From Haloarcula laminariae (GTDB lineage: Archaea > Halobacteriota > Halobacteria > Halobacteriales > Haloarculaceae), in assembly GCF_025457605.1 (NCBI RefSeq), contig NZ_JAMZFY010000001.1:1-64000 (forward strand): DNA of 64,000 nt. The letters are read 5' to 3'. How positions within the stretch are numbered: the first letter of the stretch is position 1; every line of letters starts with the position of its first letter. Positions 924 to 31,861 of the stretch are shown piece by piece. The notes below the pieces were generated by a model, which did no database searches, was not told where the DNA came from, and saw nothing but the letters and a program-made list of their open reading frames with translations. Both the position numbers and the translations under genes were made by a program.

Positions 924-1589
924 TTAGTGGTCGTGTAGCTGATCATTCGGCTTTCTACCACTCAGGAAAACCCGTCCGCTACCTGTCTGTTCTACAGTCT
1001 TCGTTCGCCCCTCCTTAGCGGTTCGAATAAATCCCTCTGACTCGAGACTATCAACATGGCGTGCAATGGTGCTTTTCGACTTCTCGAGCTCCGTAGCAAT
1101 ATTGCTGATAGACAACGGTGTGTCTAAGTCTGTTAGGTTCGCGAGCAACGTTGCTTCAGCGTCGGAGATATTACTTCGAAGATTCAAGAATGGAAGCCGA
1201 CGTACGCTACTGTCAATATCACCAACTTGAAGAACTGTATTAATATGGTTCTCGTTTGAGAACGTAGCAACCGTTAGCGGAAGAAGAATCTCTCGCGCCC
1301 CGCCACCGAGGATGACTATCGTTTCACCTTCTGCTGCTTGCATGAGGTCTGCGCAGAGAAGCGTCGTTTCGACAAAATCGGTATATGGGAGTCGCTCTGA
1401 CTCCAACTTGAGGTCCGGGACGACCTGCGTCAGAACGTCTTTCACCTCGTCAAAAGCTTCTTCACTCTGATCAGAACTATTCGCAGGTTGAAGGAGGATA
1501 ACGCGATCCGATTCATCTAATCCTTCGCTCAAGACCGGTTTTACAACACGCCTGCTGTCGAACCCGAGCGGTGCGAGGTACGTTCTCAT
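924..1589 (-). CDS. Csa3-like CARF-wHTH transcriptional regulator
   Basis: A 221-residue protein. The N-terminal half (about 1-125) opens with MRTYLAPLGFD, the typical first strand of Csa3-type CARF domains, and contains a glycine-rich turn (ILGGGAREI) expected of that ligand-binding Rossmann-like fold. The C-terminal half is a winged helix-turn-helix (about 140-205) with a clear recognition region (SISNIATELEKSKSTIARHVDSLESEG). I chose the ATG at 1587-1589 over the upstream ATG at 1649 because Csa3 proteins begin at this motif. CARF domains sense cyclic oligonucleotides in CRISPR systems, but no CRISPR array or cas gene is present here. The gene is divergent from the Dpd-like operon, with a perfect palindrome between them, which suggests it regulates that operon. 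Confidence 0.8.
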   Translation of the reverse strand: MRTYLAPLGFDSRRVVKPVLSEGLDESDRVILLQPANSSDQSEEAFDEVKDVLTQVVPDLKLESERLPYTDFVETTLLCADLMQAAEGETIVILGGGAREILLPLTVATFSNENHINTVLQVGDIDSSVRRLPFLNLRSNISDAEATLLANLTDLDTPLSISNIATELEKSKSTIARHVDSLESEGFIRTAKEGRTKTVEQTGSGRVFLSGRKPNDQLHDH

Positions 1590-1804
1590 GTATACAATTC
1601 CAATCCAGACTCTCGTTATTGTTCCGGAATTGCACAACAGTCGTCGCAACAGTGGGATGGAATACGCGGTTCAGAAGGATCTAATCAAGCATTTCCATAG
1701 ATGAACCATCTGAACTGTCCCAGATTAGTGCAAACGATGCGGAAATGTTTCACCGACGATAATTATTTGACTGCTGGCTAAAAATCGATGGGTGTTCGCC
1801 CATC

Positions 1805-1834
1805 TCGTACTAGTGGTGGCTACCACTAGTACGA
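1805..1834. promoter_or_regulatory. 13-bp perfect inverted repeat, candidate operator
   Basis: The arms TCGTACTAGTGGT and ACCACTAGTACGA are exact complements separated by four bases. The site lies between the divergent CARF regulator (start 1589) and the large plus-strand operon (start 1966). A second short palindrome, CCGTAGCTACGG, is at 1941-1952, just before the first operon start codon. A dimeric winged-helix protein such as the adjacent Csa3-like regulator would bind a site of this shape. That pairing is inference; a transcribed hairpin is the alternative. I see no gene elsewhere in 1590-1965. Confidence 0.5.
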
Positions 1835-1965: not shown

Positions 1966-2898
1966 ATGCGAACGCAAGGCGTCACCCCATCCCACACAGA
2001 CGCCGCAAACAACCCAAGCACCCCCCAGGTGAATATGGACCCACCCGACTCAGAAACGCCAGCACTTGCGGACTTCATCGGAACACGAGATTCATTTCTC
2101 GTCATCCGAGACCCGCAACTCGCAAAGACTGGTTCCCAGGCCCGCGCACAACTCAGGTCACTGCCATTCCTCGCGCAGTTCGGCCTCCGCCACGTCGCCC
2201 ACCCCGGCATCTACGACAACGGGCTGCGACTGGTCGAATACGACCTCGTAGTAAACGAAACGCTACGAGAGAATGGAGTCGAGAATGTCGAATTCCCACT
2301 GGTTCACTACGTGAGCCAGGAAATGCTGACTGGTGAACTACAGGACGAAGACCGCAACTTCGATGAACAGGACGTCGTTCGGCGACTGCTCCGAGCGCGT
2401 CCAACTAACGCGACGTACGTACTCGTCACCGATACGAGTACTCCGAAGATGCCGCGGCTCACGAAGAAGCCCGGTAAGTCGTTCATCGACGAGTTTGAGT
2501 GCTCGGTCGCGGACTACAAGGGACTGCTGAAACGGTATCTCCAGTACAATCTCGACTCCGCGCTTCCACTGTCGACGACACAGAACCTGTACTTCCACCA
2601 GATCTCGGCGCACCACAACCGCGCTGGTGTAGAGGCTGGCTCCATCCCGGACCTGTTCGATTACACGCGTATTCCTGCGGACAGTCCTGCGTGGGACCCC
2701 CTCTACTACCTCATTCGCGAGGACGTCGACCAAGTGCTCGAGGATTACTCGGAACGCATCCGCGAAGCGCTTCGTTCGTGGACCGAACGCGGGCCGACCC
2801 AGAAAGTCGCCAACAGCATGCTGGACATGCTCGAGCGGGTGGACTTCGAGGAGGATCGACTCGACGACTATCGTTACCGTCACCAGAAGGACGCATGA
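1966..2898 (+). CDS. Uncharacterised first gene of Dpd-like operon
   Basis: A 310-residue soluble protein that I do not recognise. It has no zinc-binding cysteines, Walker motifs, membrane segments or obvious nuclease motif. The first 25 residues are low-complexity and rich in Thr, Pro and Asn, so translation could instead begin at the ATG at 2035. The next gene starts in an ATGA overlap (2895-2898), so the two are translationally coupled. It heads a seven-gene operon otherwise resembling the restriction part of bacterial dpd islands, so a role in that system is likely. Equivalence to a particular Dpd protein cannot be assigned from sequence reading alone. Confidence 0.7.
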   Translation: MRTQGVTPSHTDAANNPSTPQVNMDPPDSETPALADFIGTRDSFLVIRDPQLAKTGSQARAQLRSLPFLAQFGLRHVAHPGIYDNGLRLVEYDLVVNETLRENGVENVEFPLVHYVSQEMLTGELQDEDRNFDEQDVVRRLLRARPTNATYVLVTDTSTPKMPRLTKKPGKSFIDEFECSVADYKGLLKRYLQYNLDSALPLSTTQNLYFHQISAHHNRAGVEAGSIPDLFDYTRIPADSPAWDPLYYLIREDVDQVLEDYSERIREALRSWTERGPTQKVANSMLDMLERVDFEEDRLDDYRYRHQKDA

Positions 2899-3821
2899 GC
2901 ACGACGTACACACCGGCGAGTCACAAGCCGGACAAACTACTCACCGGGTTCATCTCGGTGCGAGCACCGGAACTCAAACACATCTACGCTTCGCTTCAAG
3001 CGGCGACGAGCGCGTCAGAGGTTACGCGCAAGTTCGGTCGGCCATCCGGCGGCGGCCTCCAAACGAACCACGTTGAGGATTCACTGCGCTTCCTGAACGC
3101 CGTCGACCTTGTCGAGAGTCCGACGCGTGATGTCATCGACACAGTTGAGCGAATCAACGACCGTCACTTCGAAGGGCTGGCCTTCGAGGCGCGCTTGCTG
3201 TACCACTGCAACCAGCAAGACGGTCGTCAAAGGCACTTTGCAGACGTCCATCGCGCGCTCCTGAGCGAGGGCAGTCGGACGGTGGATGCCGGTCGTGACA
3301 ACCTCCGAACGATCCTGAAACGAGAGACTGACTACGACTTCTCCTGGACCGACGAGAAAATCGATATGTGGGTCACGTTGGGCGAGCAGGTGGGGCTCAT
3401 CACCGAGACTGAGGACGGACTCGTCTTGAGTCCCTGCCGTGCGTTGCTGTACGACGCGCTCGCGCTCGCTCCAACCGATTCGAGTGCTGATCCCGACTAC
3501 GACGACCTCCCCGTGGATGACGGCGAGGTTCAGGAGATGTTCAACTGGATCAACGACAACCTGTTCACGGTCTACGAGGCCAGAACGGGCACCCCCAAGC
3601 TCCACCCCGCCATCACCGACGTACTTCGGAATATGGCAGAAGACGGCGTCGTCGACCTTTCAGCACCTGGAGATTCACAGAACGAAGTGAAGCTTCCTCC
3701 TGAAAACCTCAAGAAGGACAACCGCGGCAATCGGCAGGACGTGACGTACGTCTCGGTTCACTCCAAACCGAGCGAGACAGCTTACGAGTATCCCCTCGAC
3801 CAGCTCCTTACCCAACAATGA
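2895..3821 (+). CDS. DpdG-like protein of Dpd system
   Basis: A 308-residue protein with ATGA overlaps on both sides (2895-2898 and 3818-3821), so it is tightly coupled to its neighbours. Residues about 10-80 read as a helical, HTH-like region. The rest is acidic and mixed, without catalytic motifs I can name. It lies immediately before the DpdH-like ATPase, the position and approximate size of DpdG in bacterial dpd clusters, where dpdG-H-I-J-K are consecutive. The assignment rests on synteny and size, not on a recognised signature. I infer an accessory role in recognising or processing unmodified DNA. Confidence 0.55.
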   Translation: MSTTYTPASHKPDKLLTGFISVRAPELKHIYASLQAATSASEVTRKFGRPSGGGLQTNHVEDSLRFLNAVDLVESPTRDVIDTVERINDRHFEGLAFEARLLYHCNQQDGRQRHFADVHRALLSEGSRTVDAGRDNLRTILKRETDYDFSWTDEKIDMWVTLGEQVGLITETEDGLVLSPCRALLYDALALAPTDSSADPDYDDLPVDDGEVQEMFNWINDNLFTVYEARTGTPKLHPAITDVLRNMAEDGVVDLSAPGDSQNEVKLPPENLKKDNRGNRQDVTYVSVHSKPSETAYEYPLDQLLTQQ

Positions 3822-6800
3822 GCCAACACACTCCGAAATCGACCGCAGGCAACGAGATGCCTACCTATTGGGATGACCAGCAAGTCGATCACTTCATCAC
3901 GTCCGAAGCACACACAAAAAAGAAGACGCCAGAACAGTTCAAGGAGACCCACGTCGACATCGACCGGATTTACGCTGATAACCTGACTCCGCTCGGCGTA
4001 TCTGGCAAGTTCGTTACCCAGGAAGACGTCCTTAATGCGATCACGGCATCGAGCCTCGACGACCCGAACCGCATCTTCATCCTGCGTGGCGAACCGGGAT
4101 CTGGCAAGTCCCAACTCTGTGAGTGGACCAAGTATCAAATCAACGGCTACGGCGAGGACGACGAGGGGATTGAAGACCGGGTGGCGCTTCATGTGTCCCG
4201 CAGCCAGACCCGCATGGACCAGATTCTCGACATCCTGACCGAACCACTGGATGTCAACACTGATGTCCGCAACATTGACGACCTCGACCCCGACGACGCG
4301 GCCGCTGCAATCGTCGAGTACCTTCGCGGTATCTGGTCGACAGAACACCTTAGCGACGAAGAGATTCAAGAGCTTACGGAGGCTCGAGGAGATAAGAGCG
4401 ACCTTCGCAAAATCTTCGGGAAAAACATTCAGGAGTATCAAGAGGCCATTGAATCCCGTGATGGAAACCCAGAATTTAACCTCCTGACTCGGGCTGACTA
4501 CCGCGATCTTCGGTTACAGTTGACCTTCGGTAATAAGCTCACTGAGAATAAGGACGTGCTTTACTCGGTCCTCAAAAACGAAGCCCACGAGTACCTCTCT
4601 CGGAACCTCGTCGGCGATTTCAAAGAGTTACTCCAAGAATACTCGCAGCGGTATCAAGATCAGGGAATTCGACCAACTCTCATTTGCGAGGACCTCACAA
4701 CCTTCAGCGTCCTGAAGGAGCAACTCCTGGACCACATCTTCGAGCTCAGCAGTAGCAGCTACGACATCATTCTCGGGTGGACGATTGGCTGGGAGCAGGA
4801 TAATATTAATGACGCACTCACCCGGCAAAACGCTGCAGAGTACATGGAGGGGCGCTCACAGGGGAAGCTTACGATGAGCGATGAAGATACACATGAAGCG
4901 TACTTCCTCGATGACGACGCATCTGTTGCGCTCGCCCGATCGTACCTTGATGCAATCAAGCAAAATTCTGGTGCTGAGAGCGCTCCCGGAGATGTTGAGG
5001 AAGCGTTCGACGAACTCTACCCATTCAATGAGCGCTTCATTCACGTCGCATACAGGCAGCTGAATGATGGGGGAAGCAATCGGAAGACGCCGAGGCTATT
5101 ACTTCTGCGTGTAGTCAAACACTGTCTAAAATCAAGTTTACCGCCCTACGAGGCGATGAAGTCGAACTCGTTTGTCGATACCCCGACGTTCGAGATCGAC
5201 ATGAAGTACGACCAAATTTATCAGGACGTCAGCCGGTGGTACGGCGTCCCAGTTGATGATGGAATCGGAGTCCGGGTCCGTATCCTCGAAACCTTCGACA
5301 TTGATCTTCCCGACAGTGACAAAGCACCGGTCAAGGGCGACTACGTGGTCTTCGAGCGCGGGAGGGGGAGCGCTGTCATCGAGAAGATCAAGAACCCGCC
5401 GACGCCGGAACATGACGTCGATGAAGACGAGGAAACCGAAGAAGACGAGACCGAGAACACAGAAGCGGACGAAACTGAGGAAGACGAGGACGACGAAGTC
5501 GAAATCGTTGACGAACCTGAACTCACGGACGAACAGCGTGAGAGCCAGCAGAAGTTCCAGGAGTTCCAGAACTGGGTGACGAACGGGGAAGAATACCCAA
5601 GTTCGGACACGCTTCACGACGGGGCTGTCGCCACTCTGGAACGCTGGCACGAGCCCACGCGTCTCAGCAATCCCCACGCATCGACGCGTTCTGCGGGAAG
5701 TATTTACTACGCTCGCGGTGACAGCATCCCCGTCTCGATTCAGGGCGACCAACAGCGCCAGGCCAGCATCGACATCGAACTCGAATGTGAGTCGGATTAT
5801 GCTGACCTCTACACCAGTATGCTTGAGTACGGGCTCTTTGACGTGTTCGACCCCCAAACGACGGACTTCGACCAGCTTCGTGCGTGGGCGGATACGAACG
5901 TCGCTCAGTTCAAACGCGAGATGCGTGAGGAGGTTGAGGACTGTCTTCCGTCAGAGCTGAATATCGAGAAGACTCTGGTACTTGCTCAGTTCTTCCTGAT
6001 CAACGCGGCTCGCGGTGCCGAAATCGATGACGACGGGATTCCTGCAGACCTCGTTCTTGAGGAGTACGACAGTAATCAACCGTACGGTAAGCCGGTTTCC
6101 GAGCACTTCGATAGAGGTAGTGCGTTTGGACAGGCGTTCAGCGACCTGACGATGTCGTCCAGCGACATCAGCGACCTGATTGAGGGATTCTTCCTCCTCA
6201 AGTCGAACGTCGTGGACTACGAGCGTCTCTCGGAAGCACGGCGCGAGGTCGCGGACGACCTGCAAGCACACGTCGACGCGGCACTGATGATTGACACTGC
6301 CGACCTCGCGGACGCATACAGAGTTGGCACAACACGCAACAACGCGAATACCAAGCTATCCAGCCTGCTCGACCGAATTTCCGACTACGCCGCTGAACTC
6401 GACCGCCTTACCGCCGAGGAGAACGCCGCCCACATTCAGGAAGCACTCGAGCCGGTAGAACGCTGGTACGACAGCAGCCATACCGTTAACGACCTCGCCG
6501 AGTGGTTCGAGACGCTTGAAAACTGTCGAGGAACCTTTGATGGGAAAGATAAGAAAATTTATGAGAAGGCTCGTAACCTCCTCCATATCGAATCTGACGA
6601 ATCTCCGGAGAATATCAACCTTACCTCGTTTAGAGACGATGTTCAGAGGTTCCAGAACATGGAGGACACGACGGGAGTGACGCTCGTCGCCCGACTTCAC
6701 GACTTCGCGCGAAGTCAGCACGAGCAGGACGCCTGGGAGATTTACGAGGCGTTTGACTCACTCATCGACAATCTCCAAGAGGAAGAGCACGCGACCGGTG

Positions 6801-6892
6801 CAAACCTCGAACACCGCGTCAAGCAACTCAGCGAGTACAGCGACTACGAACAGAAACGCCAGAAGATTCTCTCCGTGACGGAGGGCCTGTAA
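3818..6892 (+). CDS. DpdH-like P-loop ATPase
   Basis: A 1024-residue protein. A clear Walker A motif GEPGSGKS lies at residues 91-98, and a Walker B-like strand (TLICEDLT) follows near residue 290. Residues about 530-575 form a very acidic Glu/Asp-rich linker separating the ATPase half from an all-helical C-terminal half. There is no helicase motif VI. Size, P-loop position and location between the DpdG-like and coiled-coil genes fit DpdH, an ATPase component of the 7-deazaguanine restriction module. The gene overlaps the previous stop by four bases and ends one base before the next ATG. ATP binding is well supported; the DpdH name is inferred from synteny. Confidence 0.7.
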   Translation: MSQHTPKSTAGNEMPTYWDDQQVDHFITSEAHTKKKTPEQFKETHVDIDRIYADNLTPLGVSGKFVTQEDVLNAITASSLDDPNRIFILRGEPGSGKSQLCEWTKYQINGYGEDDEGIEDRVALHVSRSQTRMDQILDILTEPLDVNTDVRNIDDLDPDDAAAAIVEYLRGIWSTEHLSDEEIQELTEARGDKSDLRKIFGKNIQEYQEAIESRDGNPEFNLLTRADYRDLRLQLTFGNKLTENKDVLYSVLKNEAHEYLSRNLVGDFKELLQEYSQRYQDQGIRPTLICEDLTTFSVLKEQLLDHIFELSSSSYDIILGWTIGWEQDNINDALTRQNAAEYMEGRSQGKLTMSDEDTHEAYFLDDDASVALARSYLDAIKQNSGAESAPGDVEEAFDELYPFNERFIHVAYRQLNDGGSNRKTPRLLLLRVVKHCLKSSLPPYEAMKSNSFVDTPTFEIDMKYDQIYQDVSRWYGVPVDDGIGVRVRILETFDIDLPDSDKAPVKGDYVVFERGRGSAVIEKIKNPPTPEHDVDEDEETEEDETENTEADETEEDEDDEVEIVDEPELTDEQRESQQKFQEFQNWVTNGEEYPSSDTLHDGAVATLERWHEPTRLSNPHASTRSAGSIYYARGDSIPVSIQGDQQRQASIDIELECESDYADLYTSMLEYGLFDVFDPQTTDFDQLRAWADTNVAQFKREMREEVEDCLPSELNIEKTLVLAQFFLINAARGAEIDDDGIPADLVLEEYDSNQPYGKPVSEHFDRGSAFGQAFSDLTMSSSDISDLIEGFFLLKSNVVDYERLSEARREVADDLQAHVDAALMIDTADLADAYRVGTTRNNANTKLSSLLDRISDYAAELDRLTAEENAAHIQEALEPVERWYDSSHTVNDLAEWFETLENCRGTFDGKDKKIYEKARNLLHIESDESPENINLTSFRDDVQRFQNMEDTTGVTLVARLHDFARSQHEQDAWEIYEAFDSLIDNLQEEEHATGANLEHRVKQLSEYSDYEQKRQKILSVTEGL

Positions 6893-6893
6893 G

Positions 6894-7718
6894 ATGTCTG
6901 GAACCCAATCTCTACCTGCGGCCGTTGACGCGCTCAAAGACAAGGCATTAGAACACAAACGAGGAGAGAACGCCAAATACACCATATCTGTCGCGCAGTA
7001 CAATATCAACGAAATCAACAGCGAACTCGATGACCTTGAAGAAGCGCTTCGAGACCTGCGGTACTACAAGACGGTTCTCGAGGAGGCATTCGATGGGTCG
7101 GCACCGACGATGCTTGGCAGTGCCGTTCAAACGGCCGAGAACGCGGTTGACGTCACGCAGGACGAGTTGCTGGGGAACGTCCAGAGGAGTGAAATGGCGG
7201 ACGAAGAGGTTTCTCTCGACCAGGATGACACTGAACCAGAAGTCGAGCTCACTCCCGAAGTCGAAACCCAGATCAGGCAGATTCGATCCGCAAAGCAGCA
7301 GGTTGAGAACGTCAGTGAGACTATTCAGGGGAAACTGGAGAGCAATAGAGACACCTGGAGTACGCGGGTCAGCGCCGCCGAGGAACTACAGAAAATTCTT
7401 GGCGGGCAGAACTCGGACTTCTCGCGCACGCTCAACCACATGCACCGACTTCTCACCCGGGACTTGATGGATTCCAGCGGGAGTGCCTCCAAGTTCGTGT
7501 CCGAGTGGGAGAACGCTACGGACAGTTGGGAGAAACACCAATCGCTCCAGAGCTTCGACGACTTCAAAGAGAAACACGATCTGTCGGATTCGACCATCGA
7601 GGACGTGAAGACGCTCAGCAAGTCCCAGCAGCTCACGCTAGCCGACGTTTCCACGGACACCCTTGAGGAGATGAAGCGCGTCGACGAACTAGAGTCGGCC
7701 GTAGAACTTAGCCTCTGA
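6894..7718 (+). CDS. Coiled-coil protein in DpdI position
   Basis: A 274-residue, highly acidic and mostly helical protein. Heptad-like stretches at about residues 35-75 and 120-165 suggest coiled coils. There are no cysteine clusters, catalytic motifs or membrane segments. It begins one base after the DpdH-like gene stops and ends two bases before the first helicase gene, so it is an integral operon member. In bacterial dpd clusters a small uncharacterised gene, dpdI, occupies this slot between dpdH and dpdJ. I infer a bridging subunit between ATPase and helicase; nothing in the sequence shows an enzymatic activity. Confidence 0.6.
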   Translation: MSGTQSLPAAVDALKDKALEHKRGENAKYTISVAQYNINEINSELDDLEEALRDLRYYKTVLEEAFDGSAPTMLGSAVQTAENAVDVTQDELLGNVQRSEMADEEVSLDQDDTEPEVELTPEVETQIRQIRSAKQQVENVSETIQGKLESNRDTWSTRVSAAEELQKILGGQNSDFSRTLNHMHRLLTRDLMDSSGSASKFVSEWENATDSWEKHQSLQSFDDFKEKHDLSDSTIEDVKTLSKSQQLTLADVSTDTLEEMKRVDELESAVELSL

Positions 7719-7720
7719 CA

Positions 7721-10700
7721 ATGAAGGACCCCGCCGCCCGCGCGGAACAGATGCAAGCGGCCTACCGCGACTATTTCATCGGTCGCGGGGGGCGCGCCGC
7801 TCGCAGCGTAGCGCACCGGTTAGCCGACGGTGAGAGCGATGTCACAGGAATGCGTGGGCCGTTCCTGCAAGCGCTTGATATCCCGAACTGGAGTGACCGT
7901 TCGTGGGATACCTTCGCCAGGTCGGCGCATCTGGAACCCCACATCCGACGAGCGTTCTCGGAGATCGGGTTCGAGAGGCTTTACGACTTCCAGGAGCGGA
8001 GTATCGAGTCGATACTCGACGGTGACGACACGGTAATCACTGCCGCGACGGGGCGGGGGAAGACTGAGGCGTGGCTCATTCCGATTCTCAACCGGATCCT
8101 CGAAGCGAAGCGTCAGGAAGAGGATGAGGGAGACGACACGAGCGTCAAGGCAACGCTCATCTACCCGACGAAGGCCCTGGCGCAAGACCAGTTGAAGCGC
8201 CTCCTTCAGTACCTCTACCTCATCAATAAGCAGCTGAAGTCGTCGCAACGCATCTCAGTTGGTATCTACGACGGGGACACGCCCCGCGACGTGAGCGAGT
8301 CCGGTGCGGAGGGCTACCTCAATTCCACGTTCAAGCACTTCGAATGTCCGGGGTACAATCCCGAACTCGACAAGTGCCAGGACTGCGGTGGTGGTGTTCG
8401 CGTCAGAAACACCGGCTCCCGATTCAAACTTATCCCGGAGAAAGCCCACTGTGAAGAAGACGAGCCGAACGATGTGCCGTTGGACTTCCTTCGGCTGACT
8501 AGGTACGACATCCTCGAAAACGGCGTTGACATCGTCCTCACGAACCCCGACACGATCAACTACCGACTCATCAACACCAACGCTGAGGACGAACACCAGC
8601 GGTTCATCTACGAACCCGAGTTCCTCGTGTTCGACGAGGTTCACACGTACGACGGCTTGTTCGGGAGTTACACATCGACGTTGATGAAGCGCGTACAGGC
8701 GCTGCGAGAGAACCGGGGCGTCGACGACCTGCAACTCATCGCGAGCAGCGCAACCGTCGAGAACGACGTCGAGCTCTTCCAGAAAGTCAGCGGCGCCGTT
8801 GACGTCACACAAGTAAGCGAGTCGCCTCGCGAACTCGACGCCACGGTGCCATTATCTGTCCCAGAAGAGTTTACGTCACACCGTCTGTCCGTCGACCGCA
8901 TTCTGCGTGCGACGGGAACGCCCGACGACACTGTTCCGGGGTTAGACGCATTCGATTACACGCTTGAGGAGGCATCGAGTTACGACCGCGATCGCCGGGA
9001 GACACTGGTCGCCGATGCCCTCTTCGACCATCTGACTGGAACTCACGACGACCCCGGCGTGCAGGTGGTACAGTACGTCCACCAATTGCTCTACGACGAC
9101 CCGCTGACCCGCTCGGAACTGCACGAGCAGTTGGCCGAGACCTTCGCCCTCGATGAGTCCGGTGTCGAGACGCTGGTGGAGAACGTCCGCACGCTCGGTG
9201 AGTTCTCTGGAATTCTGGAGAACCGCAGTCACATGTTCTCCTGGCCGATCGACGGGTTCTACGCGTGTGCAGCGTGCGAAACCGTCTATCGCTCACCGCA
9301 GGATTCCTGCCGGGAGTGCGGATTCGAGTTCGTCACTCGCTCCACGTACTGTCGCTATTGCAGCGACGAACACCTCGTCACCTGGTACTGCCCCGAGTGC
9401 GACCAACTGGAGTCGTACACGCCCACCGAACACGGATCGGTCGGACAAGACGAGGACCACGTTTGTACTCGGTGTGAGAGGGTTCGCGACGATGCGGTAC
9501 AGATGGTTCGTGTCACGTTCCAGCCTTTCCTGGAGTGCCAGGAATGCAACCATCGGGTGGAACGGACCACCATCGCTGAGTGTTCCGACTGCGGGTCCCG
9601 TACTGTCAGGACCGATTCCGAGACGACCACCTGTATCAATCCACAGTGTGGGAGTACCCAAACAGTCGAACAGGCCTGTGATCGGTGTGAGGGCTCTGTG
9701 TTCGAGGTTTCCAGCGTCGAAGGACGATTCGATTGCCCCGAATGTGGCACTACGTACGACCGGCCCGAAGATGCTCCCGAGCGTTGTCGCGAGTGTGACT
9801 CACCACTCGAGTCGACACGATACCTACCGTGGGTGTGTGCGAGCGACAACTGCGACCGAATCCACTTCCAAGACGCTCCCGACCAGTGTCAGTGTGGATC
9901 GTCGTCGTTCGTGAAACGGGGGCTGTTCGAGATCCAGCACGACCAGCACTGCCGGTCGTGTGACACCGCATTCGTTGAGGAAGACGGATGCGGCTGCGAC
10001 AACCCGGACGTCCACCAGAGAACGGGGTCTCATCGAGCGTACAAAACGCTCGACACACACGGGAGAATCCATTCGATGAGCTCTCAAGGATCGGCAGTTC
10101 CGTGCCCACACCCGTACGCTCGCTACGAAATTGGAAGTCGGTTCGACGAGATGATGCGCAGCCCGAACAACCTGGCGGCGACGACATCACAGTACCTGAT
10201 GCGTGCGGTCGCTGACGACGAGGGACAACAAGCTGCTAAACTCCTCTCGTTCGCGGACTCCCACCGCGACATGAAGGAACTCAGTAGGGACTTCTCCGAG
10301 CCCGAGACCGAGACGCTACTGGACCAACTGCTCGTCCGTGGTGCAGCGAACGACGGTTCGTCCTCGTGGGTATCATTCGACGATGTCCTCGAGTACGCCG
10401 ACGAATCCATTGATAGCCTCAACGAGTCGCTTGAACCGCCACGAGTGGCTAGGAACGTCGAATTCGATCTGAAATCGCGTCTCAAGGACCAACCTCGTAA
10501 GCGGTGGGACGACGATGATGCGCTGCACGGCCGGCTCACACGGCGTGCACTATCGCACACTTACAGTCAGCGTCTCGGGGAACGTGACGACCCCCTCTCG
10601 GAAGTCGGTCTACTCGACGTACGGTTCGCTCCCGGGCTGGATGCCCTTTCTGGTGACGAACGGGCAATTGTCCGCGAACTCGTCGACGAGGGGAACGATT

Positions 10701-13249: not shown

Positions 13250-13273
13250 CTACATCCCACAGGAAACCCACCG

Positions 13274-20699: not shown

Positions 20700-20710
20700 G
20701 GATTCACCGT

Positions 20711-21275: not shown

Positions 21276-21332
21276 TCGAGAAGAATAAGAGCCAGATCCG
21301 TCTTAATCGTCGGTAAATCGGTTCAGCGGCGA

Positions 21333-22633: not shown

Positions 22634-22634
22634 G

Positions 22635-24315: not shown

Positions 24316-25320
24316 CGCTCTTGGGTAGAGGATTGTTGGTCAGTTCGCAGCAGTAGCTGGAAGTCACAGCGGGCAAGGGTGGCGCGAACGCGCCACCCGA
24401 CGAAGCATGATTCCACTCAAGACGTTCGTCTCGGAGCGTCGTGCCGCGAATCTGCTGGCACAGATTCGCTGGCGTGACGGCGTCTATTGCCCGCGCTGCC
24501 GTGCCGAATCTGTGATTCGGTACGGCAGCTATCGGGTGTTTCAACGGTATCGCTGTAAGAATTGCGACCGCACGTTCAACGATAAGACAGGTACGGTCTT
24601 CGAGCATTCTTCGATCGCGCTCAGGAAGTGGTTTCTCGCTGTCTACGCCTACATCCGGTTCAACACCAGTCTTCGGCAACTGGACGTGGAGATCGATGTC
24701 TCCTACAAAACAGTGTACCGGCGCGTCCAGCGCTTCCTGCGAGCGCTGGACGCGCCTCGGCCACAGTTAGAAGGGCCGGTCGAACTCGACGAACTGTACG
24801 TCAAAGCCGGACTCAAGGGCCGCGAGCGCGACCAGGAGTCGCGCTCGCGTGGCCTGTCCACGCGCGGACGTGGAAAATATAGCGAGGACAAACCGCCTGT
24901 GTTCGTGCTGGTTGATCGGGGAACGAACGACTGCTACGTGCTGCCAGCGAAATCCGCCGAGGAATCGACCGTTCGACTCCTCCTTGCCGACCACGATGAG
25001 GAGTCGCTGACCGTCTATACGGATGGATTTCGGGCCTACGACCCGCTAGAGGACGACGAAGAGTTCGACCGCGAATACGTCGTGCACGGCGATGGTGAAT
25101 ACGTTGATGGAGATGTTCACGTGAATACCTGCGAGAGCCACGCGTCGCTGGCGCGACGGTGGCTCTCGCCGCATCGAGGCGTCTCCAAAGACAGGCTCAC
25201 GCCCTACTTCAGAGCGTTTCAACTTCGCCAACGCGTCCGCCGGAAACCCGGCGAAGAAGCACTCAAAACTATCCTCAAAACTGCGCTATGATGCCACCAA
25301 CAATCGCTTACCCATGAGCG
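24316..25320 (+). mobile_element. IS1595-family insertion sequence, 1005 bp
   Basis: The left end CGCTCTTGGGTAGAGGATTG and the reverse complement of the right end (CGCTCATGGGTAAGCGATTG) match over about 25 bases with few differences, and both are followed by TTGGT. Exact 8-bp duplications TTATTTTT flank the element at 24308-24315 and 25321-25328. It carries one intact transposase. The exact duplications suggest a fairly recent insertion, which removed any remaining function of the host gene. Confidence 0.9.
24407..25291 (+). CDS. IS1595-family transposase
   Basis: A 294-residue transposase. An N-terminal zinc ribbon (CPRC at about 26-29 and CKNC at about 49-52) is followed by a helix-turn-helix region and a DDE-type core. 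Candidate acidic residues lie in ELDELYVKA and TVYTDGFRAY, followed by the NTCESHASL segment typical of this family. It is intact, fills most of the 1005-bp element and is preceded by an untranslated stretch containing the short palindrome TGGCGCGAACGCGCCA. Confidence 0.9.
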   Translation: MIPLKTFVSERRAANLLAQIRWRDGVYCPRCRAESVIRYGSYRVFQRYRCKNCDRTFNDKTGTVFEHSSIALRKWFLAVYAYIRFNTSLRQLDVEIDVSYKTVYRRVQRFLRALDAPRPQLEGPVELDELYVKAGLKGRERDQESRSRGLSTRGRGKYSEDKPPVFVLVDRGTNDCYVLPAKSAEESTVRLLLADHDEESLTVYTDGFRAYDPLEDDEEFDREYVVHGDGEYVDGDVHVNTCESHASLARRWLSPHRGVSKDRLTPYFRAFQLRQRVRRKPGEEALKTILKTAL

Positions 25321-25735: not shown

Positions 25736-28636
25736 GTGCGGTTCTACGTACCTGAGTGGGACGACGCAGTCGACTCCCACTACGATTTCAAACACGACGA
25801 ACTCTCTACCTTGAACCGTCAAGAGCGCGATCTGGACTATATCTGGGACATTTTCGAGCCCGAAACAACACCAGTAGACGGGGTTCTCATATCTCGCGAA
25901 CAGGTCGAAGAGACAAACCGCAAAGCCGAGCGACTAGCCCAGTACGGTGTCTACGATGACCCCGTACTTTCTATCCCGAATTGGTTACCGACGATTAGTG
26001 ACTGCGGGGCTTGGGGGTACAAGTCGCTCCCTTTCCCACCGTACGGGAACGAGGATATGCTCGACTTCTACGAGACGCTGGACGTTACTGTCGGCGTCAC
26101 TATCGACCACCTCGTTCTAGGGTCGGGAAAGGACAAGGGACGGCTCTATCTTGACGAACGCGCGTTCGACGGAGAACTCAACAAAGGCGACATCCCCGAC
26201 CCCATCACCGACGTCGTTGACGTCATGATTGAGGAATGGCCAGAGGAATGGCCCTCATATGTCGACGAGTACGAGCCGACGATTCGTACTGATCATACAG
26301 AAGTTGAACCGTTCATCGCTGAGGACTTTCGGGGAGACATTGATACCATTCTGTCCCGTCTCGAACAAGATTCACGTGCGGTCTATCGCGAACACGACGC
26401 CGAGTTCCGCTACGACTTGACGCTGCGGAACGCCCGAGAGATGTATGACCTCTACCAGCGTGGTGATTACCCGTTCCGACTGATGGTCGCCATCCAAGGA
26501 TGGAACCCTGAAACATACAGCAAGGCCGCTGAGGAAGTGCTTGGTATGGGTTACGACTACCTCGGCATCGGAGGAGTTGCAGGTAGCCCAGTTCACGACG
26601 TTCGTGGAATCGTCAAGAGCGTCGGGAAGACTATCAAACAGTTCGAACGAGAGCACGACAGCCGTATCGACTCCCACGTCTTCGGCTTCGCGAAGACTGA
26701 AGCATTCGAGACGATCGGCCGTTCAGGGATGACCAGCTTCGACAGCGCAAGTATGCTTCGCTCGGCGTGGACAGGTGGTCAGAATTATCGTCTTGACAAC
26801 GGCGAGCGCTATGATGCAATACGGATTCGCTACCCGTCGAGCCGAGACAACCTCAGCGAAGCTGTGGAGCAGTCCTTACGCGGTCGTGAAACACTGGTGG
26901 TGCTCCGAGCATACGATGCAGATGGTTCAATTTGTGATGCTCTTGAGAGCTGGTACGAGAGGGCTGAGAAGGTGCTGCCAGCGGCGAGAGAATACCTGCT
27001 GGTACACCGCCACGATGATCAGTATGACGAGTCACTCTTACAGGACATAGAAAGGGCGTTTCGAGAGGATTTCCAGTATGGACGCGAGCTTCAAGCGAGT
27101 TTCAGCGACAACCTCCGTAGTAAGTTGGTCAAACTTCTACGGAAAGACACCCCGGATGACCCAGTACCGTTCACGGAGTATGATGAACTGCTGACCAAGG
27201 CGATGAACGTGTTCGAGGCGTTCCCACACGCGAAGACCGTCTTGGACGAGTCCAATGTTGTCAGTGACTACGATCGTGTCTGGGAGGTTGTCAGAGATTA
27301 CGCTACTTGGATTGGTGATGACAATCTCCTCCAAGAGTACCAAGAGACCCTTCGAAACCGCCCTTGGGAGAAATGTGACTGTCCAATCTGTAGTGAGCAC
27401 GGTGTCGAGGTTTGTATCTTCCGCGGAAACGACCGGAATCGTCGGCGTGGTTTCCACAACACACGACGCTTCTACGACGAATTCAAGCGAGACCTTCCGA
27501 AAATTCTCGTCGCGACCCAGGGTGATGCTAGTTTCGGTGGCTACGAAACCGTAGAAGACTACCTGCGTGACAAACACTCCTCGTTCTGGACTCAGACACA
27601 TGACCTTCCGGTCGCAGAGATTGGTGTATTAGATGCGAACGGCGTGAGTGAGTGGTGGGAAGAAACCCCGTCGCTCGTCTCGTTCGCCCCAGATCGTATG
27701 GCAGCAAACATCGGCGAACAAGCAGCGAGGTACCAGCACCTCTTCGTACACACATTGGGTGGTGAACTTGACGAAGAAACCGTAGCGGCTGCTCGGGAAA
27801 ACGGTTGCGAGGTACACACCAATAGCAACCCTCGAGACTTGCGAGATGAAATACTCGAGGTCTGCGGGCAGAACTATGCAGCCAGTGACGACTTCGTGCC
27901 TCATCCACCTGAGATTGATACCGAGAACGGATTGGACATCCTTGTCATCGATCAGTGTTCAGGATCGAAGGAGATACCAGATGACGCGCCCATTTTCGGT
28001 GAAGAGGAAACTCTCCAGTTCTCTCGTGAAGACCTCCTCGCTCGTGATAATGTGCCAGGTATTGCGGCACGCGACCTGTACACGGGACGTCAGCAAAGCC
28101 ACGTCAAGAGTGCAGTTAGATGGCTTCTGCGGCAAGGTCACGACGTCGACCGTTACTTCGTGAGTGCAGGATTTGGCCTTGTCGCAGAAGACGAGTATCT
28201 TCCACCCTACGAGGTAACGTTCAGCTCAATGAACGTTAGCGACATAAGAGAGCGGTCTGCGAAACTCGACATCCAAAAAGACCTACGACACCTCCTTCAA
28301 GAGGCCGATTACGATGTCGTCTTCTTTACCCTTGGAAAGGACTATTACACCAGTATCGACATCGACGAGATGGTTCAGGAGGTACGTACCGACCGAATTG
28401 GTGTGGTCTTCAACCGCGAACTTGTCGAAGATCAATTTGACAATATCGAATCTATCCCCGCGCGGACAGAGGACGCAAAAGAACATGGCACGATCGTTGT
28501 TGGACTCAAGGGACACTATATGAAGAACTTCGCTCGATACATCGATACTGTCGATATTCTTCGCCCGGAAACTATCGAAGAACTATGTCGGCGAGTAGAG
28601 GAAGTACCACCACAAACGGAATTCGAGTCTGAGTGA
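25736..28636 (+). CDS. dpdA: DpdA-type DNA-guanine transglycosylase with C-terminal extension
   Basis: A 966-residue protein of the tRNA-guanine transglycosylase superfamily in its DpdA form. The N-terminus MRFYVPEWDD, the DCGAWGY motif (general acid/base D89, replacing DSGGF) and GVTIDHLVL are typical of DpdA. TSFDSASMLRSAW carries the likely nucleophile D336. The zinc site is C547, C549, C552 and H574. DpdA exchanges guanine in DNA for preQ0. The last 240 residues form an extra domain with a C-x3-K start (C741, K745), an ARDLYTG motif and SAGFGLVAEDEYLPPY, resembling the DUF6884/YaaA-like group. The start is the GTG at 25736; an AT-rich TTTATA box is about 45 bases upstream. Confidence 0.88.
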   Translation: MRFYVPEWDDAVDSHYDFKHDELSTLNRQERDLDYIWDIFEPETTPVDGVLISREQVEETNRKAERLAQYGVYDDPVLSIPNWLPTISDCGAWGYKSLPFPPYGNEDMLDFYETLDVTVGVTIDHLVLGSGKDKGRLYLDERAFDGELNKGDIPDPITDVVDVMIEEWPEEWPSYVDEYEPTIRTDHTEVEPFIAEDFRGDIDTILSRLEQDSRAVYREHDAEFRYDLTLRNAREMYDLYQRGDYPFRLMVAIQGWNPETYSKAAEEVLGMGYDYLGIGGVAGSPVHDVRGIVKSVGKTIKQFEREHDSRIDSHVFGFAKTEAFETIGRSGMTSFDSASMLRSAWTGGQNYRLDNGERYDAIRIRYPSSRDNLSEAVEQSLRGRETLVVLRAYDADGSICDALESWYERAEKVLPAAREYLLVHRHDDQYDESLLQDIERAFREDFQYGRELQASFSDNLRSKLVKLLRKDTPDDPVPFTEYDELLTKAMNVFEAFPHAKTVLDESNVVSDYDRVWEVVRDYATWIGDDNLLQEYQETLRNRPWEKCDCPICSEHGVEVCIFRGNDRNRRRGFHNTRRFYDEFKRDLPKILVATQGDASFGGYETVEDYLRDKHSSFWTQTHDLPVAEIGVLDANGVSEWWEETPSLVSFAPDRMAANIGEQAARYQHLFVHTLGGELDEETVAAARENGCEVHTNSNPRDLRDEILEVCGQNYAASDDFVPHPPEIDTENGLDILVIDQCSGSKEIPDDAPIFGEEETLQFSREDLLARDNVPGIAARDLYTGRQQSHVKSAVRWLLRQGHDVDRYFVSAGFGLVAEDEYLPPYEVTFSSMNVSDIRERSAKLDIQKDLRHLLQEADYDVVFFTLGKDYYTSIDIDEMVQEVRTDRIGVVFNRELVEDQFDNIESIPARTEDAKEHGTIVVGLKGHYMKNFARYIDTVDILRPETIEELCRRVEEVPPQTEFESE

Positions 28637-28776
28637 TCCTCCACTACTAGATGGCATCGTACGTGTTCTTTCGCCCCTAACGATTGTGATCCTATCCTAT
28701 AATAAATTACATATATGTGGATTGTTCATATCGCCCCATTCACTAAATAAGAGGACAGCCTATCCGAGCGGGAGGC

Positions 28777-29811
28777 ATGTTGTATCGACGCAGGAAACTC
28801 GACCTCCCCCGAGGGGAATTAGACACCCCTGTTCTTTTCCCCGTTAGAAACATCGGGAAGCGGTCGAGTGACAATACACCGACGTACGTCGGCACGATCC
28901 CAGAGTTCTCGGCAGCGATGATCAACGCGAGATCAATTCGTAACCGAGACCCAATGTGGCAGAGAATATCGAATGGTGTAACATTACGAGAGGAAATGGA
29001 CGTCCCGGAGGACACCATCGTTTTCGCGGACAGTGGTGGGTTCGATTTCGCCAACGAAGAAGTGGACACTACCCCAGCAAAAACGCTTGATACCCAGAGA
29101 CAATTGGACGCGGACATCCTCGGCACAGTCGACATTCCTCTCTCAAGGGAGAATCGGGCAGCAGAAAATCAACGGCGAATCGACCAAAGCATCGAGTACG
29201 CACTCAAAGCGAGCGACCATCACGATGGGAAGGGCCTTCTCTTCGCGAGTGTCCATGGTTACGATCCAGAGACGATCCGGAATAACATACAATACCTGGA
29301 GAAGAACGGTGAATTCGATGGGTTTGCTCTCGGAAGTATGGTTCCAATACGAACCGATTATAAAAAAGTAACAAAACTGATACTATCTGCACGAAACGCG
29401 ACAGACAAGCACCTGCACGTGTATGGTCTCGGAGGTCTCGTCTATCAACCACTGCTGCTCTACTTGGGGGTCGACAGTTTCGACTCTTCGGCCTTCATTC
29501 GTAGTGCAGGCAACCGGAACTACTTGATTCCGGGATTCGGAGGGGAAGAACTACGGAATATCGAGGAATTAGACAGGCTCCCCTGTCCCTGCCCGGTGTG
29601 TGGACAAAAAGAGCTCGACGAGATTCGCGAAGATCGAACTGCCCTGACCCAGCATAATCTCTGGGCACTTGCGACCGAGCTGCGACGCTTCCGTTATGTC
29701 GCCGAATCTGATCGAGATGTTGAGGAGTACCTCGACTTGCGCTTCAGCGGGAACAAGGTCACTAAGCGGGCATACGAAACCGCGAAGCAACAGATGAGGA
29801 GGCTCACATGA
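28777..29811 (+). CDS. Second, short TGT/DpdA-like transglycosylase
   Basis: A 344-residue transglycosylase closer to classical TGT motifs. ADSGGF carries D85, GVDSFDSSAF carries the nucleophile candidate D236, and the zinc site is C270, C272, C275 and H293. It lacks the N-terminal DpdA signature and any PUA domain, the usual tRNA-binding part of archaeal TGT, so DNA is a likelier substrate than tRNA. GGAGG lies only one base before the ATG, too close to be a normal ribosome site. It overlaps the next gene by four bases. Two transglycosylases in one island suggest either a heteromeric enzyme or two specificities. Confidence 0.82.
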   Translation: MLYRRRKLDLPRGELDTPVLFPVRNIGKRSSDNTPTYVGTIPEFSAAMINARSIRNRDPMWQRISNGVTLREEMDVPEDTIVFADSGGFDFANEEVDTTPAKTLDTQRQLDADILGTVDIPLSRENRAAENQRRIDQSIEYALKASDHHDGKGLLFASVHGYDPETIRNNIQYLEKNGEFDGFALGSMVPIRTDYKKVTKLILSARNATDKHLHVYGLGGLVYQPLLLYLGVDSFDSSAFIRSAGNRNYLIPGFGGEELRNIEELDRLPCPCPVCGQKELDEIREDRTALTQHNLWALATELRRFRYVAESDRDVEEYLDLRFSGNKVTKRAYETAKQQMRRLT

Positions 29812-30704
29812 GTAATGAGAGACCAACTGTAAGGCCAATCACTCTCAGCCGGATGGCTGAACTGACTCATGCCTGTGAAGCAGTTAGCAAGTCAACTGAA
29901 GATCTTGAGGATGAATTGGAGGTAAGTCACCGCCGTGCGCGTGAAACAATTCTCGAAGCAAAGCGCATCTCCTTGCTCGAAGAAGATGACTCTGACGAGG
30001 CACCAGTCTACACGACGACTGATGTCGGTTTGTCGTTCCTTAATGCAATTCGCGACGAGGACTGGAGTCAAGTGAGCACAATCCTAGAGACACGTAGTCC
30101 CCACTACGGGACCTTCATTGAGGTTCTTGGAGAGGTCGAAAACGCTGGTTTAGACACACTTCTGGCCCAATTGGAAGAGGCACAGGAATTCAGCCCCTAT
30201 TCGTATAACCAAACGAGTGTGGAGGTGCTGGGTGACTGGGCTGAGCGGCTGGGTCGGGTTCAACGAAACGCGTTCACGGGAGACTACTACTTGACAGATC
30301 AGGCGGCAATACCCGCTAACTTCCACTACCTGCTTTTGGACGTGTACGACGACCTCGAAGATAGAGCGGGTATCGATCTGCGCCAGCGCTACTTGTCGAT
30401 TCCACGTCTTCGTGAGGAGACCTGTGAACGACTCGGCTGCACTCGTGATGATTTCAACGATGCGCTGCTCGGGCTTTGCCAGCAGAACGTCGGTAAACTT
30501 GAGCTGTCGGGCGCACCGATGGATACGGCTGCAAAGGATGCTGCACTCGGCATCAAGCGCATTGTGCTTTCCGAAGAGGGTGGTTTAGTTAGCACGTCTC
30601 AGTCCACTCAACAGGTCATGGCGGGTGTCGAACAGTTTGGTAAGAAATACTACTACCTCGCGGTACACGACCGCGATATCGAATACACACAGGAGGCTAC
30701 ATAA
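29808..30704 (+). CDS. Uncharacterised HTH-containing protein coupled to transglycosylase
   Basis: A 298-residue acidic protein I cannot assign. Residues about 15-75 look like a winged helix (HACEAVSKSTEDLEDELEVSHRRARETILEAKR), and the rest is helical without catalytic motifs. It begins in the ATGA overlap with the transglycosylase stop and its TAA shares a base with the next ATG (30704), so three genes form one translational unit. A DNA-binding adaptor for the transglycosylase and ATPase is a reasonable guess. Confidence 0.65.
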   Translation: MSNERPTVRPITLSRMAELTHACEAVSKSTEDLEDELEVSHRRARETILEAKRISLLEEDDSDEAPVYTTTDVGLSFLNAIRDEDWSQVSTILETRSPHYGTFIEVLGEVENAGLDTLLAQLEEAQEFSPYSYNQTSVEVLGDWAERLGRVQRNAFTGDYYLTDQAAIPANFHYLLLDVYDDLEDRAGIDLRQRYLSIPRLREETCERLGCTRDDFNDALLGLCQQNVGKLELSGAPMDTAAKDAALGIKRIVLSEEGGLVSTSQSTQQVMAGVEQFGKKYYYLAVHDRDIEYTQEAT

Positions 30705-31861
30705 TGTCCGACGCATTCACGATCACCGACGAGCAGCAAGACTACTCACAGTACGACTTGGACGCGAATCCCTTCCCGTACAGTCCGGTACCCACTGAAG
30801 ATCCCGGGATATACTGTGGCCAGCAGCACGTCTCGGACAAGATCAGCTCGACGGTTTCGTCGATGTTGTCTACTGGGAAGTCGAAGCATCTGGTGGTCAC
30901 CGGAAAGTATGGGAATGGGAAGTCTCACACGCTCAAATACACGCGCTCGCTCCTCCGCGACCGCGATGATGTCATCGTAGGATACGTTGCCCAGCCTGGT
31001 GACGGATTCCTCGACATCTACCACGAGTTCGTCTACGATCTGGGCTTCAACCGACTCCAAGAGTTCGCGTACGAGTTCCTTGCATCTGTGGCGAGAGATG
31101 TCACCGACACAAACCCGATCGGTGCCAGTGGGATGGAATCACTGATTGACGAAGGCGATGTGCTGCTCTCGGAAATTGTCCCCGAGGCGATTCGCCGCCT
31201 CAGCGATGTGACGAAGTTCGCCGACTTTGCACGTGCCATTATCCACATGGTGTACGAGGACACGAATCTCTATGCGTGGCAGTGGCTCACCGCAGAGGGA
31301 ATTCGATACGAGCAGCGCAAGGAGATGGAAATTCACAGCGCACTCGACGATGATACGATGGGTGTTCGGGCCTTCACCGCACTCAAAAATATGCTCCTCG
31401 AACTCGGCTATACCGGTATTTTCGTCTTCGTCGACGAGTTCGAGAGCATCGCACGCCTCTCACCCAAGGACGAACAGGCAACACTCAACAGCATTCGGCA
31501 CCTGATGGATCAGAACAGTTCGGGACTATGCATGCTGTTTGGTTGCGCTCCCGAGGTCTGGCAAGACGTGATGAGTGAATACCATGCGTTTAGCGAGCGG
31601 ATCGGGGAAGAAGTTGCTCTGAAACCGCTCACTAGTGAGAACCTCTATGAGTTGGTGCGTGATTATTTAGATCAAGAGAGGCTGTCTTCTGCTGAAAATG
31701 AGGGGATAGATCCCTTTTCTGAGGAGGCGTTGGATTTGATTCTCCAAACATCACAGGGCAATATCCGGCAGGTCCTATCTATGTGTAGCCGCATCCTCGA
31801 TGATGCTGCAGAATCCCAGGAAAATAAAATTACAGCTGCTTGGGTCGAGGACAATATCTGA
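30704..31861 (+). CDS. AAA/ORC-like P-loop ATPase coupled to DpdA genes
   Basis: A 385-residue ATPase. Walker A GKYGNGKS is at about residues 67-74, and Walker B IFVFVDEFES is near 240-247. A sensor-like CMLFGCAPEVW segment and a C-terminal winged-helix-like lid follow. The layout resembles the BrxC/D and ORC/Cdc6-like ATPases found in defence systems. In Salmonella the transglycosylase DpdA works with DpdB, which has an ATPase domain, so this protein may be a functional counterpart. That is inference; no DpdB-type DGQHR region is visible. Confidence 0.75.
   Translation: MSDAFTITDEQQDYSQYDLDANPFPYSPVPTEDPGIYCGQQHVSDKISSTVSSMLSTGKSKHLVVTGKYGNGKSHTLKYTRSLLRDRDDVIVGYVAQPGDGFLDIYHEFVYDLGFNRLQEFAYEFLASVARDVTDTNPIGASGMESLIDEGDVLLSEIVPEAIRRLSDVTKFADFARAIIHMVYEDTNLYAWQWLTAEGIRYEQRKEMEIHSALDDDTMGVRAFTALKNMLLELGYTGIFVFVDEFESIARLSPKDEQATLNSIRHLMDQNSSGLCMLFGCAPEVWQDVMSEYHAFSERIGEEVALKPLTSENLYELVRDYLDQERLSSAENEGIDPFSEEALDLILQTSQGNIRQVLSMCSRILDDAAESQENKITAAWVEDNI

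Follow-up and report, generated by a model that had tools for sequence, protein, structure and literature searches.

The systems closest to the locus described here are those named BRIGADE, which the text of PMC12458937 describes as Dpd-like, found only in halophilic archaea, and made up of deazaguanine clusters, YprA helicases (usually two) and nucleases of the PLD or PD-(D/E)XK type. Type I combines one ARMADA-like with one Dpd-branch YprA helicase; Type II, named in the same 2025 preprint, has two ARMADA-like helicases, and both are said there still to await detailed characterisation. We analysed the first 64,000 nucleotides (the window, whose positions are used throughout) of contig NZ_JAMZFY010000001.1 of Haloarcula laminariae, assembly GCF_025457605.1, and found that positions 924-31861 probably hold a haloarchaeal BRIGADE Type II locus, an immune island akin to a restriction-modification system, in which a 7-deazaguanine would label self DNA. 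A first, sequence-only reading had proposed a Dpd-like modification and restriction island, which is borne out by a genuine DpdA, dedicated preQ0 synthesis and, by hhalign, a DpdH homologue. The genes it named are real and lie where it placed them, except that gene 2 (oG) starts near 2895 rather than 2499 and the PLD gene near 18720 rather than 18561.

From left to right the island consists of a CARF/Csa3 helix-turn-helix (HTH) regulator on the minus strand, a restriction operon (plus), a preQ0 operon (minus), an IS1595 element and a writer operon (plus):

1969-20699, plus strand: restriction operon (operon A), with o311, oG, a DpdH-like ATPase, o274, two YprA-family helicases and a PLD protein
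21333-23863, minus strand: preQ0 operon queD-queE-folE-queC
25736-31861, plus strand: writer operon, with dpdA, tgt2, o298 and a BrxD-like ATPase

QueD, QueE, QueC and FolE would make preQ0, which DpdA, assisted in the insertion by TGT2, o298 and the BrxD-like ATPase, would exchange for selected DNA guanines. The DpdC domain would then hydrate the nitrile through a conserved Cys and Lys to give the amido-type product, dADG. All seven products of the restriction operon, including the PLD nuclease, would serve to attack unmarked DNA, and the divergent CARF/Csa3 regulator probably controls that operon. The island offers a near-complete parts list with a concrete base prediction (dADG). Its most interesting new element is a largely fixed writer that is paired in relatives with exchanged restriction modules, a natural experiment.

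DpdA, its fused DpdC domain and the predicted base

25736-27907, plus strand: DpdA, the DNA-guanine transglycosylase part, residues 1-724 (D89, D336; zinc ligands C547/C549/C552/H574)
27908-28636, plus strand: DpdC domain fused to the C-terminus of DpdA (C741, K745), residues ~733-966, the last ~234

The fused protein (25736-28636, plus strand) has 966 residues. It passes the NCBIfam DpdA cut-off (279.5 against 200 bits), and a profile of ten DpdA sequences, the window's included, has as its top PDB match 7ui4, a 'DNA-guanine transglycosylase' (E 4.6e-182). For comparison we used 391 Halobacteria genomes, evenly drawn, of which 73 match the fused query, many only through the DpdC-like part. 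Fifty-four dpdA neighbourhoods were compiled, namely 51 loci of 50 genomes from this set, two plasmid records and the window; excluded were G196, G302, G111 and G104, whose dpdA lies near the end of a contig, G131, which is divergent, and an incomplete second copy in G264. All 54 keep the catalytic aspartate pair and the CxCxxC/H zinc ligands; DpdA is fused to DpdC in 30 of them and split from it in 24. The 13 haloarchaeal DpdA proteins that were placed in a tree form one clade (SH-aLRT 100).

Four kinds of evidence, from sequence and a structural model, point to DpdC as the identity of the C-terminal domain: (i) the PADLOC DpdC profile matches it (E 1.9e-7); (ii) a profile of the haloarchaeal domains aligns by hhalign with an Enterobacter protein (E 1.4e-5, probability 80) that is itself DpdC by PADLOC at 470 bits; (iii) Cys741 and Lys745 are conserved without exception, both among the 30 fused haloarchaeal proteins and when the domain of the window is compared with 43 N-terminal domains from bacteria, and three canonical DpdC proteins (PADLOC 470, 352 and 232 bits) share the CxxxK, LYxG and SAGLG motifs, as judged by eye; and (iv) an AlphaFold (AF2) model from 44 sequences (pLDDT 88) has as its top fold match Escherichia coli YaaA (DUF328; 5caj), the sole Foldseek match at E <= 0.001 (E 4.4e-5). 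This model superposes on 5caj with Z 10.0 over 183 residues at 4.9 A; since the next, unrelated folds reach Z 9.4 and 8.7, the Z value alone is not decisive for YaaA. By sequence, the domain found no solved relative in the PDB, only chance-level rows. In haloarchaea DpdC is either C-terminal on DpdA or, in the split type, a separate gene beside dpdA, while in Paenibacillus, cyanobacteria and others it is N-terminal on DpdA; that the same two partners are joined in opposite orders speaks for their acting together. Elsewhere, three archaeal loci (L156, L158 and L159, from Lokiarchaeota, Thorarchaeota and another archaeon) encode DpdA, with a DpdC-like gene close by on the opposite strand.

What base does the writer make? 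DpdC belongs to DUF328 and converts dPreQ0 to dADG, according to PMC12839542. The presence of its domain therefore predicts ordinary dADG and no new base, contrary to the different final base first suggested for the island; Cys741 would be the nucleophile. Alternatively, the writer could yield dPreQ0 or archaeosine-type dG+, which would make it a distinct chemical subtype. The host does have ArcS elsewhere in its genome, the second TGT (tRNA-guanine transglycosylase) of the island is of archaeal TgtA type, and DNA of the virus HVTV-1 from a Haloarcula host is reported to hold a little dG+ (PMC6884629). Yet DpdA has a DpdC domain, complete in its motif residues, fused to it or encoded next to it, no island protein passes the cut-off of ArcS (TGT2 46.6 against 440 bits) or of QueF (FolE 23.3 against 27.3 and 23.5 against 86.9 bits), and QueC has no amidotransferase domain by Pfam, so that we consider this alternative improbable.

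The dADG prediction bears on an older puzzle. HVTV-1 DNA contains much dPreQ1 and a little dADG, though the virus encodes no DpdA, and a DpdA homologue is present in its Haloarcula host and reported from Haloarcula vallismortis (PMC6884629). A host writer is a candidate answer to how such DNA is modified without a viral DpdA, and the fused DpdC offers one explanation for the dADG.

The substrate would come from the four genes of the preQ0 operon, which is followed by an insertion element:

21333-22028, minus strand: QueC, preQ0 synthase, island copy (Pfam E 7.7e-76)
22025-22633, minus strand: FolE, GTP cyclohydrolase I (Pfam E 4e-51)
22635-23408, minus strand: QueE-like radical SAM protein (Pfam radical SAM E 2.8e-17)
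23408-23863, minus strand: QueD-like 6-carboxytetrahydropterin synthase (Pfam PTPS E 1.2e-19)
24316-25319, plus strand: IS1595-family element between the divergent queD and dpdA, delimited by a homology gap at 24316-25319

All four genes of the operon predicted at first are recognised by Pfam. QueC (189.3 against 150.3 bits) and FolE (162.7 against 162, a FolE subfamily model) pass their NCBIfam cut-offs; QueE and QueD have the expected models as their top NCBIfam matches at scores below them (97.1 against 300 and 70.1 against 89.25). The genome carries a second queD-queE-queC set on contig C2 (QueC at G000:C2:430319), 67-79% identical to the island copies, and the same contig encodes a full-length TgtA (614.5 against 350 bits) and a full-length ArcS (808.2 against 440 bits). 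The preQ0 genes of the island are thus distinct from the housekeeping set for archaeosine. The IS1595 transposase (24407-25291, DDE_Tnp_IS1595 E 4.4e-21) belongs to an element that is absent from seven of the eight relatives compared, the eighth, G332, not being aligned across the site.

TGT2 and its partners in the writer

28777-29811, plus strand: TGT2, second TGT, catalytically intact, without the C-terminal part of archaeal TgtA (Pfam TGT 2.5e-26)
29808-30704, plus strand: o298, conserved writer protein and writer marker, no known family
30704-31861, plus strand: BrxD-like AAA ATPase of the writer (Pfam BrxC_BrxD E 4.5e-16)

As first read, the island has two TGT-family genes with intact catalytic and zinc residues; in TGT2 these residues are unchanged across all 49 homologues. 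Of the 54 dpdA neighbourhoods, 49 contain the complete trio of TGT2, o298 and the ATPase. The exceptions are G087 and G332 (where the query matched in pieces), G337b, G166 (contig end) and G061. Of the 57 other class genomes that match o298, 55 have a relative 53-92% identical to it (a fragment in G034) and two have one that is 40-41% identical. The N-terminus of o298 could be HTH-like; the protein had no match beyond chance-level rows in the PDB and none to DpdG, and its single-sequence AF2 model reached pLDDT 39. The ATPase has a Walker A motif at 67 and a Walker B motif at 241.

Is TGT2 a tRNA enzyme carried along with the writer and outside DNA modification? The solved structure nearest to it is the archaeosine tRNA TGT 1iq8 (profile E 4.5e-26), and both aspartates and the zinc ligands fall within the alignment. 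This alignment, however, spans only residues 23-339 of the 582 of TgtA; TGT2 scores 132.7 bits against an NCBIfam TgtA cut-off of 350, the genome has its own full TgtA, and 49 of 54 haloarchaeal loci have TGT2 alongside DpdA. We think a tRNA role unlikely.

A survey of 90 mostly bacterial DpdA loci (80 from genome contigs, the best 80 of 499 relatives, and 10 plasmid records; L086, L110 and L111 share an identical DpdA and several loci are partial) found a TGT2-like gene in 31, a DGQHR (DpdB/DndB-like) gene in 22, both in none and neither in 37, which again speaks against a passenger tRNA enzyme. The simple probability of zero overlap is 1.7e-5; a tree-aware sign test, with three of the 22 DGQHR loci (L114, L118, L123) outside the tree, was not significant (median p 1). 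The Scytonema DGQHR gene matches DndB and not DpdB. Two haloarchaeal genomes of one genus, G274 and G162, have DpdB-like DGQHR genes (L072:2771-4225 and L180:13732-15117) in or beside the writer cassette, and they are the only two of the 391 genomes matched by a DpdB-like query taken from one of them. Strict mutual exclusion of TGT2 and DGQHR was rejected, as both of these genomes have the two genes and the tree-aware test is null; the pattern is a lead only. In the cyanobacterial plasmids L079 and L085, TGT2-like proteins with both aspartate motifs and without the CxCxxC zinc motif lie between two DEAD helicases.

According to PMC6884629 and PMC8651126, preQ0 pathways occur in haloviruses, one of which, HRTV-29, also encodes a homologue of DpdA, and phage DNA is protected by 7-deazaguanines. 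A viral origin of the island, as counter-defence and not as immunity of the host, is nonetheless highly improbable: no relative of TGT2 or o298 was found in viral contigs and none of TGT2 in 50,697 phage records, the phage records gave one distant DpdA match, and the island includes a helicase/nuclease operon.

A largely fixed writer with exchanged restriction modules

924-1649, minus strand: Csa3/CARF-HTH regulator, divergent from the restriction operon (Pfam Csa3_N E 1.2e-14)
1969-2898, plus strand: o311, opening gene of the restriction operon and module marker, no known family
2895-3821, plus strand: oG, 308 residues, in the DpdG position, homology to DpdG not proven
3818-6892, plus strand: DpdH-like P-loop ATPase, 1024 residues (PADLOC DpdH E 7.5e-6)
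6894-7718, plus strand: o274, 274 residues, in the DpdI position, homology to DpdI not detectable
7721-13249, plus strand: helicase 1, YprA-family superfamily 2 (SF2), ARMADA/Druantia-like, 1842 residues (PADLOC)
13274-18727, plus strand: helicase 2, YprA-family SF2 with MrfA Zn-binding (DUF1998) domain, 1817 residues (PADLOC, Pfam)
18720-20699, plus strand: PLD-family nuclease, 659 residues (PLDc_2 E 7.4e-6, just below cut-off)
20712, no strand: module boundary, 13 bp after the PLD stop, where homology with five relatives begins

The boundary was placed by blastn of the window against G110, G342, G171, G285 and G357, and the junction sequences were inspected in three of these. To its right, the DNA of the preQ0 operon and dpdA is 91-96% identical in four relatives and 82-88% in G357, and homology extends through the writer ATPase gene in four of the five; in G285 the tgt2-o298-ATPase part aligned only to a divergent copy (69%). 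To its left, all five carry another module, which consists of a split DpdJ-like helicase, an MZB protein and a PD-(D/E)XK protein, the latter two families being assigned from the G258 copies. The helicase scores are the reverse of the window's: DpdJ 188.6 against DruE 49.8 bits by PADLOC for the G258 copy, with DpdJ at 186.7 for that of G110. Within the window's own genus, G342 has this alternative module and G051 keeps the window type; G110 is from the same family. A third arrangement, with a DruE-like helicase of 1282 residues, occurs in G026. Plasmid pBNX82-4 of Haloferax alexandrinus BNX82 has both the writer cassette and, over the stretch covered, the helicase operon. Across relatives, at least two alternative restriction modules are served by a writer that stays largely fixed. 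No repeat of at least 14 bp that might account for the swap was found inside window 20500-21300, in a search that did not take in repeats common to both module ends. In G285 (L173-L174), a second, more divergent tgt2-o298-ATPase and queD/E/C set adjoins the window-type dpdA and preQ0 operon, an arrangement that resembles two writers in the course of recombination at a single site.

Markers were followed across the 391 genomes at different E limits (1e-10, 1e-6 and 1e-20 for the three). The writer marker o298 was found in 58 (a fragment in G034), the restriction marker o311 in 39 and the PD-(D/E)XK marker in 17 (a fragment with a stop in G040). All 39 and all 17 lie within the 58, the pattern expected of a restriction module that needs the mark. 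Eight of the writer genomes have both restriction markers, nine only PD-(D/E)XK and ten neither. Among these ten, G026 and G278 have other YprA-type helicases; the rest showed no module in the stretch examined, bar a UvrD-type helicase-nuclease in G337 and G377, with G034, G104, G131 and G366 not covered.

These counts also bear on whether the island is two unrelated neighbours, a DNA-modifying writer next to a Druantia/ARMADA-like nuclease system that works independently of the mark. In favour of this view, the restriction operon can be exchanged and some o311 copies lie 28-139 kb from the writer (G040, G305, G003), its helicases resemble DruE, and Druantia is not known to need DNA modification. 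Such independence sits badly with restriction markers that occur only where the writer does (39/39 and 17/17, kinship uncorrected) and with an operon ATPase that is a DpdH homologue, and we give it little credence.

The PADLOC DpdH score of this ATPase is weak (22.5 bits), and profile comparison by hhalign relates it to Enterobacter DpdH (E 2.7e-6, probability 88.5) and to a Paenibacillus ATPase (E 3.4e-18, probability 99). The ATPase, two helicases and PLD protein of the sequence-only reading are all present, and from its order dpdG-H-I-J-K DpdH was recovered; the remainder was not. By hhalign, oG gave a probability of 1.8 with DpdG and o274 no match to DpdI, each against a single bacterial sequence and so a weak test; oG did match the Paenibacillus gene upstream of that organism's DpdH-like ATPase (probability 57, E 1e-4). 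Both helicases score higher by PADLOC as Druantia than as Dpd proteins (helicase 1, DruE1 143.5 against DpdJ 119.6 bits; helicase 2, DruE3 121.3 against DpdJ 97.2) and stay far below the cut-off of 800 of the NCBIfam DpdJ equivalog NF041067 (109.3 and 75.7). Helicase 1 has the motifs ATGRGKT, DEVH and QRVGRAGR. The DUF1998 (MZB) zinc domain, first ascribed to both, is seen by Pfam in helicase 2 only, and there under the cut-off (E 8.8e-5, 23.6 against 24.2 bits). The PLD protein matches DrmC models of PADLOC, with no DpdK model among the matches listed, and its H579, K581, G596 and S597 are invariant in 20 of 20 homologues. For o311 there was no match in Pfam, PADLOC or NCBIfam. A CARF gene is divergent from o311 in 15 of 22 haloarchaeal loci with enough upstream DNA, the window included, and is missing beside it in G223, G258, G274, G010, G225, G038 and G234; a cyclic-oligonucleotide signal might regulate the restriction operon.

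A wider reading, which strikes us as possible but short of probable, is plug-in immunity. A near-constant two-TGT writer would lay down one self-mark, and this mark would be read by several modules, distantly related or unrelated, that are exchanged at a fixed boundary: ARMADA-like helicases with PLD, a split DpdJ-like helicase with PD-(D/E)XK, and probably others, as in G026. TGT2 would replace DpdB in inserting the base, and preQ0-making haloviruses without DpdA would use the host writer for the hypermodification of viral DNA.

Several points weigh against an immune island of BRIGADE Type II. The DNA chemistry of the organism is not known. What the sequences show is the gene content, the conservation of catalytic residues, the fusion, the module swap and the co-occurrence; we infer the chemistry, site choice, defence and regulation, and also what TGT2, o298 and the BrxD-like ATPase do in the writer. 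QueE and QueD fall short of their NCBIfam cut-offs, and the IS1595 element upstream of dpdA might change the expression of dpdA or the preQ0 genes. Five of 54 loci are without the full cassette nearby, 10 of 58 writer genomes carry neither restriction marker, and the hypergeometric probabilities of co-occurrence (1e-39 for o311, 9e-16 for PD-(D/E)XK) ignore kinship. Neither oG nor o274 could be tied to DpdG or DpdI. Finally, the two window helicases are 37% identical across their full length, whereas PMC12458937 calls the Type II pair 'nearly identical', a phrase that may refer to sequence or to architecture.

The surroundings suggest an integration hotspot, since a tRNA-Cys gene lies just beyond the left edge of the island (472-548) and an integrase-family gene at 41306-42169. 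A small Mrr-like restriction endonuclease (33370-34050, Pfam E 3.1e-4) is encoded just downstream of the writer. Outside the island, two neighbouring proteins have ParB N-terminal domains (54333-56497).

Comparison with known systems

How does the island compare with other defence systems? Canonical bacterial Dpd (the Salmonella type, represented here by Enterobacter plasmid pPOL9A, L081) has in common with it DpdA, DpdC, DpdH, preQ0 dependence, a YprA-family helicase and a PLD protein. In contrast, the island has a fused DpdC, a second TGT, a BrxD-like ATPase, DruE-like helicases and a long PLD protein. The sequence-only reading held DpdB, DpdC, DpdE and DpdF to be lacking, and DpdC is there after all. 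DpdB had no PADLOC match among the island proteins scanned and the genome no match to the haloarchaeal DpdB-like query; DpdE and DpdF appear only as shared helicase similarity (helicase 2 against DpdF, 22 bits, among the matches listed), and DpdD was not recognised in the island. Bacterial dpd islands have been mapped by GATOR-GC with dpdAB required (PMC11888242), a search in which systems without DpdB would be missed. The Dpd loci of Paenibacillus and cyanobacteria (L080, L079, L085) also combine a DpdA-DpdC fusion with a second, TGT2-like TGT, but DpdC is N-terminal there and C-terminal here, and the DpdJ helicase of L080 scores 1644.7 bits.

Other families were tried and rejected. BREX-related capture (BRC) with a TGT, as described in PMC12839542, resembles the island in its TGT family and BREX-like ATPase; PglZ, DUF6079 and a HerA/FtsK translocase were absent among the island proteins scanned with Pfam, and DpdC is present. 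The writer ATPase scores 43.9 bits against the BrxD equivalog cut-off of 350 and no island protein matched PglZ, BrxL or a methyltransferase, which disfavours BREX; the helicases match BrxHI at 98.6 and 82.4 bits, and DruE higher. Searches against the Dpd, DISARM and TGT families, proposed with the first reading, found DpdA, DpdC, DpdH and TGT. The DrmA and DrmC models of PADLOC match island proteins weakly, and the island is not DISARM, with no methyltransferase, helicases that are unsplit, and no separate DrmA and DrmB.

A partial search of the literature turned up no DNA deazaguanine system that has been characterised in an archaeal host, and nothing on the DpdA::DpdC fusion, TGT2 or the module swap. 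BRIGADE Type I has the same writer, and the G258 locus holds both helicase kinds; this and seven other genomes have both restriction markers (the second a fragment in G040). The window locus differs from Type I in having no Dpd-branch helicase, and the PD-(D/E)XK marker finds no match elsewhere in its genome either. The nine of 58 writer genomes with PD-(D/E)XK only fit neither BRIGADE type as PMC12458937 describes them, other ARMADA-like helicases not having been searched there. Type II, as outlined in the same source, shares with the island a haloarchaeal host, a 7-deazaguanine synthesis cluster with a TGT, a PLD nuclease and, by profile only (DruE over DpdJ bits), two ARMADA/Druantia-like helicases. 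Since this class is already named in PMC12458937, the island is not a new kind and is best filed under BRIGADE Type II. To the description of that type it appears to add the DpdA::DpdC fusion, TGT2, o298, the BrxD-like ATPase, the CARF regulator and the module swap.

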